44,403 nucleotides of DNA. It comes from an uncultured Ectothiorhodospiraceae bacterium (GTDB taxonomy: Bacteria; Pseudomonadota; Gammaproteobacteria; S012-40). The stretch is from contig CALZHW010000011.1 in NCBI GenBank assembly GCA_945787125.1, forward strand, positions 1-44,403, read 5' to 3'. The notes beneath the pieces are model-generated. The model was not told the origin of the DNA. It was given only the letters and a program-made list of their open reading frames with translations, and did no database searches. Shown piece after piece: positions 25,286 to 39,343 of the stretch; positions within the stretch are counted from its first letter, which is position 1, and every line of letters starts with the position of its first letter. The translations under genes were made by a program, and so were the position numbers.

Positions 25286-26770
25286 TTAGCGTTTTTCTAA
25301 TGACATAATGTTGAGTATTTTTTCCATATCCATGTGTGACTCCATGATATCTGCCAGCCGATTAATCTCAGCTTCTCGTAATTCTGCATAATCGAATGGC
25401 TTTGCTTCAGGTAAACCTGCCCAGCTTAGCAGAGACTGGCACGCAATGGTGGCATCAAACAGCCCATGTGCATAACAACCCATAATCTGGTTATCTGGAC
25501 TGATAGCACCGTCAGTTCGGTCACCTATTTTTAGAACAGGATTTTCCAGCCCTGACCCAGTGGTGAAACCTGCGTGGATTTCATAACCGTTCATCGGTGT
25601 ATTATCCAAGACCAAATGACCACTAATATTTTTCAAGTGTTTATTGGCTTGCAATGTCGTCTCGATATCAAGTAATCCAAAACCCGGCGTATTGCTGATT
25701 GTGCTTTCAATCGCCAATGGATCATAGATGTAATGACCTAACATTTGATAACCGCCGCAAATAGCTAAAACTTTTCCGCCGTAACGCAGATGACGATTGA
25801 TAACATTTTCCCAGCCCTGGGATCTCAACCAGGATAAATCAGCCATGACTGATTTACTGCCTGGTATAATAATTAAATCTGCCGGCGGAATGACTTGATC
25901 AGGTCCAATAAACTGAAAATCAATATCAGGATGTAAACGCAGTGGATCAAAGTCGGTATGATTGCTTATGCGTGGCAATACCGGAACGATAATGCGAAAT
26001 TTATTAAGTTTAGCCTGCGCTAAGCCTGCGGTATTTTCTGTTTCCCGTGACAGTGCATCTTCTGCTTCCAGATGAAAACCATGGATATACGGCAGGACAC
26101 CTAATACGGTTTTTTTTGTTTCATTTTCTAACCAATCCAAGCCGCTTTGTAACAAACTCAGATCGCCACGGAAACGGTTAATCACAAAGCCTTTGACACG
26201 GGATTGTTCGGTCTCACTCAGCAATGCCAAAGTACCTACCAAATGAGCGAAGACGCCGCCACGATCAATATCGGCCACAATAATAACCGGGCAATCAACC
26301 GCTTCTGCAAAACCCATGTTTGCAATATCATTTTCACGTAGATTTATTTCTGCTGGAGAGCCAGCGCCCTCGACGACAATTGCTTCATAGGTTTCACTTA
26401 ATCGAGCATAAGACTCCAGCACCGCATCAAGCGCGACTTTTTTATAATCGTGATAGTCTTTTGCATTTTGCTCGCCAATAGCTTTGCCATGAATAATAAC
26501 TTGTGCATTTTTATCCGAAGTAGGTTTGAGTAAAATTGGATTCATGTCGGTATGTGGTTCCAATCCACAAGCAAGTGCTTGCACCGCTTGCGCGCGGCCT
26601 ATTTCACCACCATCTACGGTAACGGCACTATTTAGCGCCATGTTTTGTGGTTTGAAAGGCGCAACCTGAATTCCTCGGCGCAATAATATTCTACCGAGTC
26701 CTGCGACCAACGTGCTTTTGCCTGCATCTGACGTTGTTCCTTGCACCATTAACGTTGGCGTTTTCGTCAT
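25286..26770 (-). CDS. cobQ: Cobyric acid synthase
   Basis: Glutamine-dependent amidation of adenosylcobyrinic acid a,c-diamide to adenosylcobyric acid. The product is 494 aa, normal length. The N-terminal P-loop-like [20 protein letters not shown] opens the ATP-binding (dethiobiotin-synthetase-like) domain. [13 protein letters not shown] and [11 protein letters not shown] are typical. The class I glutaminase domain has Cys in [10 protein letters not shown] and His in YAHGLFD. I chose ATG 26770, where the family start [11 protein letters not shown] lies; an in-frame start at 26848 would overlap cobO. It is 19 bases after the cobO stop and under the same riboswitch. Confidence 0.95.
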
Positions 26771-26789
26771 TGTGTTACCAACGCAGGCA

Positions 26790-27395
26790 TTACAGCTCAA
26801 CCCCTTTTTGCGCGCGTATGCCATTTTGATATGCATGTTTAATCTCACGCATTTCTGTCACAGTATCTGCGATATCAATTAACGCCTGCGGCGCGCCCCG
26901 CCCAGTGACCGCAACATGTTGCATTACTGGACGTTGTTGTAAAATCGCAATAACCTCAGCAAGGGGAATATAGTTGTACTTCAATGCAATATTTAATTCA
27001 TCCAGCACCACTAGATCAACGCTTGTGTCTGTTAAAAAGTGAACAGCTTGCTGCCAGGCTGCTGTTGCGGCAATAGTATCTTGCTCGCTGTTTTGTGTTT
27101 CCCAAGTGAAACCTTCACCCATAACGTGATATTCCACCTCGGGGAAACGACGATAAAACGCTTCTTCACCGGTTGAAAAGGTACCCTTGATAAATTGCAC
27201 AACGCCTACTTTCATTTCGTGACCCAGGGCTCGGGCAACCATGCCGAAAGCCGATGAGCTTTTACCCTTACCGTTACCGGTGTTGATTAGTAATATGCCT
27301 TTATCCTGATTCGCCGCTGCAATTTTTTTATCAATAATTGTTTTTTTGCGCTGCATGCGCGCGCGGTGCCGGCTTTCTTGTTCAGCATTTTTCAT
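26790..27395 (-). CDS. cobO: Cob(I)yrinic acid a,c-diamide adenosyltransferase (CobA/CobO/BtuR type)
   Basis: Transfers the adenosyl group of ATP to reduced corrinoid. The product is 201 aa. The P-loop is [14 protein letters not shown] (about 38-51); [26 protein letters not shown] and [20 protein letters not shown] are diagnostic of this family. The N-terminal helix (1-30) is present. It is the first gene of the left-going B12 operon; the leader contains the cobalamin riboswitch at 27551-27925. In enterobacteria the same protein is called BtuR/CobA. Confidence 0.95.
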
Positions 27396-27550
27396 GATTG
27401 GTGCTTATGTTCCTGTGAGCGAACGGAAATAACAAAGGATGACCTTGGGCCAACATCGGACGAACATGGGATACGAAGAGGAAAAAATGAAATGAAAACA
27501 AATTCACCAGCATTGCCCGCCGCAATGTCAAACCTTACAAAGTATAACTT

Positions 27551-27925
27551 CAGGCCGGTCTCCGGGCTTATGAGTGGATGATTCCTATCATTGCGCCTTC
27601 CCATAACGAGTACAGTGGCGGTTGCAATGACTTAGGAACGTGCATGAAATAAATTACCCATCTTGCATCTCATCTTCAGCCCGTCTTGGCACGTTATTCA
27701 ATCACAAAAGCTCGAAATAGAACGACTATTCCTGCACTTTTGTGATTTCAGAACGTGCCAATACAGACTAAATATGAGCGCCAGATGCCCAATTTGTTTC
27801 ATGCACGTTCCTAAACTCAATTACCGTTGCGGGGGCAGCATTGGAATAATCTCTCACTGAAAGGTGAAAAATGCACCAACTTCCCGTTTAATCCTCTCTC
27901 TTATCTAAGAGAAAGACACCTGAAA
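27551..27925 (-). promoter_or_regulatory. Cobalamin riboswitch upstream of cobO, interrupted by a fold-back element
   Basis: In minus-strand order: GGTGTC and ACGGGAAGTTGGTG at the 5' side, then GCTGCCCCCGCAACGGTAA, then a 183-bp insertion, then CCGCCACTG, ATGGGAAGGCGC and the B12-box region GCCCGGAGACCGGCCT. All conserved blocks of the RF00174-type aptamer are present in order. The insertion lies in the peripheral variable stretch between GCAACGGTAA and CCACTG. Confidence 0.88.
27632..27814. mobile_element. Fold-back (hairpin) element inserted in the riboswitch
   Basis: A 183-bp element with 24-bp terminal inverted repeats differing at one base (TTAGGAACGTGCATGAAA...). The two halves are similar over almost their whole length. 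Near the centre, TTGGCACGTT (27686-27695) pairs with AACGTGCCAA (27752-27761), and AATCACAAAAG with CTTTTGTGATT. There is no coding potential. If GGAACG is the true end, TA flanks both sides, as in IS630/Tc1-type insertion; this is tentative. Confidence 0.8.
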
Positions 27926-28085
27926 CTAAATAATGCTAGCAATATAAGATTAATTATTCTTTGCTGTCAAGAACATAGGAACATTTACTTAAGCGCCCCG
28001 CATTAGCAACAATAAAGCATTTGTTGACTCATGCAGTGCTATTCGTTAAGCTCCGCGTAAAATTTTATTAAACATTACATTTGTG

Positions 28086-28270
28086 TAGGTGCTCCGCTGA
28101 TAACCATCAAACGAGTTAAACGGGAAGCTGGTGAGTTACGACAATTCCAGCACTGCCCCCGCAACGGTAATTGAGTTAGGTTTTACTTGTGCCACTGTGA
28201 AAATGGGAAGGCGTAAAATCAGGGTTGATTAACACTCAACCCAACTCAAGAGTCCGGAGACCGGCCTGCC
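28086..28270 (+). promoter_or_regulatory. Cobalamin riboswitch upstream of the btuB operon
   Basis: Uninterrupted aptamer: AGGTGCTCC at the 5' side, AACGGGAAGCTGGTG, CACTGCCCCCGCAACGGTAA, GCCACTG, ATGGGAAGGCG and the B12-box AGTCCGGAGACCGGCCTGCC. A helper stem GGTTGA...TCAACC lies before the box. The start region of btuB follows closely, so control of translation initiation is plausible. It is back to back with the cobO riboswitch; about 160 bases between them must hold both promoters. Confidence 0.93.
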
Positions 28271-28375
28271 ATACGTATATAACAGTGTATTGCGGTGGGC
28301 GATGCAAATGATATATTTTATATCGTTCCTTCTTTCCCACTGCAATTCCACTTAATTAACTATGCGAGTTGCGGC

Positions 28376-30379
28376 GTGCGATCCCCAGTATTTACTATCA
28401 CATTATTGTTTTTATTAGGCGCTTTTGTGCAACCAAGTGTTGCCAGTAGCCCGCTGGTTATTGACATCAATAATGGTATAGATGCGATCCCTCATGAAAC
28501 GGGTGATGTGGATAAAACAATTACGTCTAGTTTTATTCAAACCGTTGAAGCAGAGAATATTCGTGATTCTCACTTGGGTTTGGCGCAAGTCATTGAAAAT
28601 TACTCAGGCATTAAAATCCGACAATTTGGTGGCCTCGGTAGTCAATCGCTAGTATCCATCCGCGGCAAATCAGCCGATCAAGTGATGATTTATCTGGACG
28701 GTATGTTACTCAACAATGCGTCCGGTGGCAGTGTTGATTTAAGTCAAATCCCTATCGATCAAATTGTTCGCATTGAAGTTTATAAAGATATTATTCCTAT
28801 AGAATTTAGCGAAGCATCCAATGGGGGCGTGATTAATATTATTACCCGTCGGACAAAAAAAACCAATACCACGCGTATTTCTGTAGGTGCAGGCATGTTC
28901 AAGACACATAAGCTAACGTTTGCTGCTACACAAAGCATGAAAAAATGGCAGTATGTTGCGTCTGGTACGTATCTAAAGTCGAATAATAATTATAAATTTA
29001 CTTTTGAGAATGGTACGCCCGAAAGTCCGGACGATCACGAAGTTCAAAATAGACAGAACAATCAACTATCGCAGTACAACTTAATTGCTAAAGCTAAACA
29101 TTCTATCACTGAGCAACGAACGTTGCAGTTTGCAGCAGAATTTTTTAATAAAAATAAGCATATTCCATCGCTACGTAACAGAACTGACACACACACCTAC
29201 GTGGAAAACAACGATAAACATTTTTATGCCAATTACATCGATAGGCAACTGGGTAGCAAGAACCTAGAACTAAACCTAAATGCTAAAGCAAGCCTAAAAA
29301 GTCAACGTTATGACGATAGTGAACGTCAAATAGGCTTGGTGAAAATGCTTATTGATCAAAACATTAAAACTTTTTCAGGCAAAGGCTATGTAAAATATCG
29401 GGGCAATACATTCGATCTCGTAAGCAACAATACCCTGCGTTATGAAACACTCAACCTTGATGATTTTTATAACTCGAAAAACTCAAAAGATAATAAGCGA
29501 ATGACTTTCTCTAGTGGTTTGCAAGCTTATTTCTATTTAAATAATAAGAAATTAATTGTTTCACCGGCCGTTCGTTATTTTATTTCACAGGATAACTATT
29601 CAGGTTATTCTTTGTTTGAGGATGATACTAAAATAGACCTTAGTCAACGTTACTCCACATTAGCCCCGCAGTTTGGTCTACGTTATCAACTTACTACTGA
29701 AGCAACGTTAAAATTTAACGCCGGGCAATATTATAGACTGCCGAATTATATCGAATTGTTTGGTATAAGTGGTTATCTGGGTTCAAACGAAAGTTTGTTG
29801 CCAGAAAAAGGCATAAATATGGATGCAGGTTTTGAGTATTTGAACTATCTAAAAGGCAATAGATTCACACAACTCAACTGGGATTTTAGTGTTTTTCACT
29901 CCTGGATTGAAAATGAAATTAACTATTCATTTAATTCACAAGGTATTGGAAAACCATCCAATAATTATGAATCAACAATTAGCGGCATTGAAAATAACAT
30001 CACACTTGAAATGTTTTATGACATTGATGTTGTTTCTCAAACAACATTATTATTGCCGCTCAACAAAAGTGACCCTGGCAACACTAAGATACTCGGTGGC
30101 CGATCAATTTGGTCGCAAACAACTCGATTGGTGCTTAATCATAATCAATGGCAGCTGTTTTTCGAGCATGTTTGGGAATCACCTTATTATTATGATAATG
30201 AAGAACGTCTGCCAGGCAAAGAAAAGTCGGTTTTTAACAGTGGTTTTAACGCTAACACTAAAAAGCTAGCATTTAGTCTTAGCTTAAATAATATCTTCAG
30301 TCATCAGAATAAAGATTACTTTACTCAGCCATCACCTGAGCTGTCAATTTTTTTTACTGCCAGTTTAAAATTATCATAA
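28376..30379 (+). CDS. btuB: TonB-dependent outer-membrane cobalamin receptor
   Basis: Outer-membrane barrel for corrinoid uptake. The plug domain is clear: VIENYSGIKIRQFGGLGSQS, LVSIRGKSADQVMIYLDGML and EASNGGVINIITRR. Then a 22-strand-type barrel follows with the C-terminus IFFTASLKLS. GTG 28376 gives a standard signal peptide (RSPVFTITLLFLLGAFVQPSVA) and 668 aa. An upstream in-frame GTG at 28295 would add 27 residues before it, so the start is uncertain. Riboswitch control, and the btuC-btuD-btuF genes downstream, make cobalamin the likely ligand. Confidence 0.9.
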   Translation: MRSPVFTITLLFLLGAFVQPSVASSPLVIDINNGIDAIPHETGDVDKTITSSFIQTVEAENIRDSHLGLAQVIENYSGIKIRQFGGLGSQSLVSIRGKSADQVMIYLDGMLLNNASGGSVDLSQIPIDQIVRIEVYKDIIPIEFSEASNGGVINIITRRTKKTNTTRISVGAGMFKTHKLTFAATQSMKKWQYVASGTYLKSNNNYKFTFENGTPESPDDHEVQNRQNNQLSQYNLIAKAKHSITEQRTLQFAAEFFNKNKHIPSLRNRTDTHTYVENNDKHFYANYIDRQLGSKNLELNLNAKASLKSQRYDDSERQIGLVKMLIDQNIKTFSGKGYVKYRGNTFDLVSNNTLRYETLNLDDFYNSKNSKDNKRMTFSSGLQAYFYLNNKKLIVSPAVRYFISQDNYSGYSLFEDDTKIDLSQRYSTLAPQFGLRYQLTTEATLKFNAGQYYRLPNYIELFGISGYLGSNESLLPEKGINMDAGFEYLNYLKGNRFTQLNWDFSVFHSWIENEINYSFNSQGIGKPSNNYESTISGIENNITLEMFYDIDVVSQTTLLLPLNKSDPGNTKILGGRSIWSQTTRLVLNHNQWQLFFEHVWESPYYYDNEERLPGKEKSVFNSGFNANTKKLAFSLSLNNIFSHQNKDYFTQPSPELSIFFTASLKLS

Positions 30380-38039: not shown

Positions 38040-38072
38040 AGCGACCGAATCCAGCAATCGCACGTTCCTAAG

Positions 38073-38479: not shown

Positions 38480-38534
38480 ACATTAATCTCCTCAACGATT
38501 CTCAGACAGGCTCCTAAATCAACAGCCGCTAGCA

Positions 38535-38945: not shown

Positions 38946-39343
38946 GATTATGTTCCTTTAAATAAGTCGATGATTTATTGCTGTACTGAAGCAAGAATAC
39001 ACTTCATAAAGTATATGTTAAATATACCACTAAAATCTGGACGTTGTGTAACAGCCAAACTAAACGCTTTAGACTTTAACAAAAAACCGCATGCTCTGGA
39101 AAGTATTAATCTGCGATATAAATGACATTTCACATTTGTTTGCAATGTCAGTGAAAGGCTACTTAAGCAATGGTACAAAAAAAAAGAGAATTTGTTATCT
39201 GAGGGAAAGTAAGTAAAAAATAGCAGTGGGGAAATTAGGCGCAATTAAGCAACCCGAAAAAGCACTATTGAGGTTGAAATTAGAACGAGGCCTCTTCAAA
39301 ATATTGAGTGGAGCATGTAAGTTATTTCATACACGTTCCTAAT
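38946..39343. other. Intergenic region with one solo fold-back end
   Basis: Mostly AT-rich without a convincing gene. TTTCATACACGTTCCTAA (39325-39342) is a solo copy of the terminus of the fold-back element found in the riboswitch at 27632-27814. A purine-rich stretch (39174-39220) precedes it. I see no promoter I can assign. Confidence 0.5.

Follow-up and report, generated by a model that had tools for sequence, protein, structure and literature searches.

A Mobile Hairpin Element within the P7-P8 Arm of a cobO Cobalamin Riboswitch and Similar Insertions in Other Gammaproteobacteria

Barrick and Breaker (2007, PMC2258182) describe riboswitch 'variable insertions' as long, non-conserved stem-loops at peripheral positions, where they should leave the core undisturbed. 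In neisserial mRNAs, the hairpins formed by Correia/NEMIS MITEs are cleaved by RNase III (PMC10969869, PMC2229807). In pneumococcus, trp is preceded by two T-box riboswitches with a BOX element between them, and regulation is apparently kept according to RNA-seq (PMC3049150); a recent review of MITEs that cites BOX calls the formation of riboswitches by such elements merely conceivable (PMC10969869). For a MITE or transposon inside a riboswitch aptamer, searches within an open-access library gave nothing closer than this BOX element between T-boxes.

Here, we describe a case within the window, by which we mean the whole 44,403-nucleotide stretch of DNA that was analysed. Its cobO leader resembles the class I cobalamin riboswitch (RF00174, with a P8-P10-P11 arm) in having all conserved boxes, the arm helices, a candidate kissing-loop partner hairpin and a B12 gene downstream. 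Its departure from the standard form is a mobile element of 177 bp that separates P7 from P8. The insert is a long peripheral stem-loop, as are the variable insertions of PMC2258182; the origin of those is not given in the passages considered, whereas the present one can be shown to be a mobile repeat, bordered by target-site copies. The BOX element, too, is a mobile repeat that forms a hairpin in the leader of a riboswitch (PMC3049150), but it lies between two complete riboswitches and not inside one aptamer. The Correia/NEMIS elements share the location of a MITE hairpin within a transcript (PMC10969869, PMC2229807); RNase III cleavage was demonstrated for them and no aptamer is involved, in contrast to the present MITE. 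Optional riboswitch stem-loops have been of unexplained origin, and at this locus the origin is visible as a mobile hairpin.

The cobO leader and the inserted element

The riboswitch is encoded on the minus strand, upstream of cobO/btuR (26790..27395, minus strand), the regulated gene, which encodes a corrinoid adenosyltransferase (PF02572, E 3.6e-64). A cobB/cbiA-type a,c-diamide synthase gene (25286..26848, minus strand; PF07685, PF01656) is the next in the presumed operon, and both genes are intact. A cmscan search yielded an RF00174 match at 27936-27762 on the minus strand with 39.2 bits (E 1.4e-6), above the gathering threshold of 31.5, the model skipping the insert via a local end. Covariance-model surveys may miss such switches, considering the 39 bits obtained here versus 96 for the intact neighbour.

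The 5′ part of the aptamer (27815..27936, minus strand), supported by the RF00174 match, comprises the outer stem, the P2 hairpin and the sequence up to the P7 5′ strand. The 3′ part (27548..27631, minus strand), read from the sequence, comprises P8, the GCCACTG...GGGAAGGC arm, the P7 3′ strand, the B12 box and the outer stem. The conserved columns are intact in both parts. Downstream, we read a P13 hairpin, CAUUGC-GGCGG-GCAAUG (27511..27527, minus strand), as a candidate kissing-loop expression platform. Its loop is complementary by inspection to the CCCCC loop of L5, the hairpin itself has a probability of 0.01 in a plain secondary-structure fold, and the same motif occurs 3′ of the btuB aptamer. 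Between 27380 and 28300, the only promoter-like site is located directly upstream of the aptamer (27941..27970, minus strand; TTGACA, 18 nt, TATATT), where a consensus match of 11/12 bases indicates a probable sigma-70 promoter; none was predicted within the inserted element.

Only two cobalamin riboswitches were found in the genome, in the cobO leader and the btuB leader. The latter, regarded from the outset as the uninterrupted form, indeed matched RF00174 without interruption (28069..28283, plus strand; 95.7 bits) and served as the internal comparison. It is followed by a divergent btuB-type receptor gene (28295-30379, plus strand) with TonB receptor Pfam matches. The cobO riboswitch of a genome from the same family (L137) is also uninterrupted.

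An element with inverted ends inside the riboswitch had been reported in the preliminary description, and we confirmed it as a fold-back of 183 nt (27632-27814, minus strand), with two nested arm pairs that are 81% and 86% complementary and 24-nt ends that agree apart from one C/T difference. Better limits are provided by a 177-bp unit (27635..27811, minus strand; GGAACG...CGTTCC), since the 183 nt include two target-site copies, TTA on the 5′ side (27812..27814, minus strand) and TAA on the 3′ side (27632..27634, minus strand). These copies differ from each other by one base and were recognized from the TNA flanks of the genomic copies. The terminal inverted repeat GGAACGTGCATGAAA is present at both ends, and the arms are complementary along the whole length, forming a long hairpin with 74 pairs (−96.1 kcal/mol) that is broken by bulges and mismatches.

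The same family was found at ~40 places in its own genome, which gave 81 alignments, since a palindromic copy aligns with the query in both orientations. Among the 18 complete copies examined, which share 88-98% identity, 14 were 177 bp long and four were 224-272 bp; identical 3-bp TNA flanks (TTA or TAA) bordered 13 of them, and 17 did not interrupt a reading frame in a crude test. Kin of the element occur in three further genomes (G004, G009 and G013). The element contains no ORF of 80 or more amino acids, and no autonomous transposon or transposase with its ends was found among the own-genome matches listed, the neighbouring window ORFs and the plasmids. The inserted element is thus a MITE, acquired by a transposon-type insertion. 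The window copy is identical to the subfamily consensus at 176 of 177 positions, which argues for a recent insertion. Of the proposal that a transposon-derived stem had been absorbed into the riboswitch, the transposon origin holds, and the absorption is not supported for this very young copy; the term 'absorbed' is premature here and better supported in Pseudomonas.

Elsewhere in the window, solo ends of the MITE family occur in intergenic sequence at 38058-38071 (GCACGTTCCTAAG) and 39325-39342 (TTTCATACACGTTCCTAA), with no matching partner end nearby. A sequence at about 38497-38517, TTCTCAGACAGGCTCCTAA, is similar to the terminus (AGGAGCTTGTC) of another hairpin family, the one located in the G004 riboswitch.

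Insertion site, aptamer core and predicted fold

The MITE is located in the peripheral P7-P8 arm, directly 3′ of the P7 5′ strand UGAGU (27815..27819, minus strand) and before the P8 5′ strand CAUUGC, in agreement with the earlier assignment of the site to the variable periphery. The P7 3′ strand ACUCA (27571..27575, minus strand) consequently lies 240 nt downstream of its partner. From the GGTA on the P6/P7 side to GCCACTG, the distance is 202 nt in the window; almost every other gammaproteobacterial riboswitch compared has 20-25 nt there.

We defined as conserved those columns that were conserved in ≥94% of 33 uninterrupted riboswitches. After in-silico removal of the element and one target copy, all 53 of these columns, including the B12 box, were intact (53/53). 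The comparison with uninterrupted relatives thus bore out the claim that all conserved aptamer parts flank the element. At this site, intact flanks prove little, because the insertion is so young.

The whole leader folded at −164 kcal/mol, in comparison with −104.7 ± 5.1 kcal/mol for shuffled sequences (z = −11.7). This value, together with the recurrence of the element at ~40 genomic places, indicates that the fold-back is not due to chance. In the partition-function fold, 143.6 of the 177 element bases were expected to pair internally and 0.0 with the outside, as anticipated for one long self-folding hairpin. The predicted pairing probability of P7 was 0.84 with the element and 0.63 without it, and it averaged 0.09 with shuffled inserts (0/60 as good), and that of P8 was 0.90 with the element present, in calculations that leave out tertiary contacts, kinetics and the L5-L13 pseudoknot. 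The P13 hairpin and the outer stem showed low pairing probabilities both with and without the element, and the fold model is therefore uninformative on the expression platform. In terms of the modelled secondary structure, the palindrome is what keeps the insertion harmless. A palindromic insert that recloses a peripheral junction implies that a structured RNA may gain a helix in one step.

Inserts in other gammaproteobacterial riboswitches

Inserts of mobile character were also detected in cobalamin riboswitches of other genomes, in which the order of the boxes was otherwise normal; the multi-copy status of the inserts was tested with one joined query. In Pseudomonas sp. 8O (L059, upstream of cobO), the insert occupies the P8-side loop and recurs, partially or completely, at 15 other places. 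The element in G302 (L160), whose riboswitch precedes a TonB receptor-like gene, has two more complete copies (87-88%), and that in G375 (L162, TonB receptor-like gene) has at least 13 further complete copies (87-94%). Elements on the 3′ side were found in a Pseudomonas MAG (G379; L067, cobO), with >30 genomic places, and in G190 (L157), with about eight further partial places. In G004 (L133), a genome of the same family as the window's, the riboswitch holds a 45-nt hairpin that is a probable mobile-element case, related ends occurring at a small number of places across G004, G009 and G011. The window MITE and the elements in the other riboswitches belong to different sequence families.

After in-silico removal, the core was complete (53/53) in L059, L193, L195, L133 and L067; upon realignment, L160 retained 49/51 and L162 retained 48/51 columns. 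Not every composite stays intact, since G375, with two elements, has three changed core bases. Its second small fold-back lies in the P2 loop (minus strand) and has ends similar to those of the P7-P8 arm element; the L162 riboswitch is possibly a decaying switch. The gene that follows the interrupted L157 riboswitch is not an obvious B12 gene; its predicted product is an exported protein of at least 312 residues (cut by the locus end). Two otherwise complete cobalamin riboswitches carry unique inserts, one of 145 nt in the arm's apical loop (L159, G175) and one of 91 nt in P4 (L148, G310); we discounted both as mobile because each is single-copy in its own genome.

Among 369 genomes of the class, an insert of 172-202 nt before GCCACTG with exact boxes occurred in the window and G302 only, a further match in G052 being a normal riboswitch. 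MITE insertion in the cobalamin riboswitch arm is thus rare but repeated. Most weak-scoring cases came from genomes with unusually low RF00174 scores, which makes the sample biased, and insertions in the core would escape recognition as riboswitches (ascertainment bias). Within these bounds, the capture of MITEs in the peripheral arm of gammaproteobacterial cobalamin riboswitches is recurrent.

In 3 of 300 Pseudomonas genomes (G378, which is sp. 8O, G458 and G651), one element, a MITE different from that of the window, was present at the identical place, close to the site occupied in the window; the match in G445 was a normal riboswitch. The 4-fold divergence of cobO among the three was 0.17-0.23. 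Their aptamers were 92-97% identical, and their elements were 88-97% identical with 14-46 gap columns. Variable aptamer columns were confined to the non-conserved positions (0/53 conserved vs 17/158 others; Fisher p = 0.008). With the insert, the predicted probabilities were 0.89-0.96 for P7 and 0.95-1.0 for P8, versus shuffled means of 0.15-0.34 and 0.02-0.22, respectively. The Pseudomonas composite is therefore kept across species with its aptamer core unchanged. The leaders of L193 and L195 are 99% identical and cobO only 92%, which hints at recombination, and because of this the three composites are not fully independent witnesses. The presence of composites in several lineages and across Pseudomonas species opens the idea to direct tests, for which uninterrupted relatives would be natural controls.

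Two Pseudomonas loci, L197 (G513) and L198 (G379), carry one repeat family in the same 3′-side hairpin loop of the cobO riboswitch. A single shared insertion is not secure, and independent insertions are possible, because L197 resembles a genomic copy (0.91) more closely than it does L198 (0.82); the loop is a possible insertion hot spot, perhaps with two independent insertions. The two inserts differ by seven compensatory pair changes. We rejected this covariation as proof of selection on the RNA, since ordinary genomic copies also differ by compensatory changes.

Readings of the interrupted leader

We consider that a MITE inserted recently into the permissive P7-P8 arm and that the aptamer core folds as before, leaving a switch that most likely responds to B12; we place the probability of this model-based reading at roughly two in three. 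The 177-bp MITE would have transposed into a TNA target just 3′ of the P7 5′ strand, and its palindromic RNA would close on itself, rejoining both halves of the arm. The core would fold unchanged apart from an additional long helix at the junction, and the leader would regulate cobO as before, with the B12 response and normal cobO expression that this entails. From the predicted fold, B12 sensing is likely retained. The P7-P8 arm would represent a permissive site, entered several times by unrelated hairpin MITEs in other Gammaproteobacteria.

Alternatively, the MITE may impair or abolish the switch through slower folding, trapped transcription or a change in the P13 contact. Expression of cobO would then be constitutively on or off, and the flanks would look intact simply because the event is recent. 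Little decay would be expected in a copy 1/177 from its consensus even if it were neutral, the same insertion is found in no known relative, and a comparable one is limited to the window and G302 in the 369 class genomes. Against this stand the prediction that the insert does not pair with the aptamer and the analogous Pseudomonas composite, which kept its core through species divergence, and we regard an impaired switch as rather improbable.

The long duplex, with its 74 predicted pairs (−96 kcal/mol), could instead be a substrate of RNase III, as neisserial MITE transcripts are cut at the inverted repeats (PMC10969869, PMC2229807). Cleavage of the leader within the element would yield a two-piece aptamer held together by helices, or open a new decay pathway, so that the MITE adds post-transcriptional control. 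The bulges and mismatches of the helix speak against this doubtful proposal, which is compatible with retained sensing and in that respect overlaps the preferred reading of a tolerated insertion.

The recurrence of such insertions in other bacteria suggests that mobile elements are one source of extra riboswitch stems. A broader, tentative view, to which we give somewhat less than even odds, is that the P7-P8 arm of class I cobalamin riboswitches repeatedly receives and retains hairpin MITEs, and that such elements generally supply the 'variable insertion' stems of riboswitches; these stems would in some cases persist through speciation and might add RNase III-dependent control.

An assembly artefact, in which a repeat-induced chimera joins two unrelated riboswitch halves, is very unlikely. 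The draft is fragmented into 321 contigs, ~40 near-identical copies are a potential source of misassembly, and the target copies TTA and TAA differ by one base. However, the element is just 183 bp, and the halves complete a single riboswitch, in which the strands of P7 (UGAGU/ACUCA) and of the outer stem (UUCAGG/CCUGAA) are complementary. Each 5′ and 3′ conserved box is present once, cobO follows, and no cobalamin riboswitch was found in the genome besides this one and the intact one of btuB. The idea that the hairpin is a native expansion of the arm, which would fit the frequent variable stem-loop insertions described by Barrick and Breaker (2007, PMC2258182), is ruled out by the copy number of the element, as the same sequence recurs at ~40 unrelated places with target-site copies and the cobO riboswitch of the same-family genome (L137) is uninterrupted.
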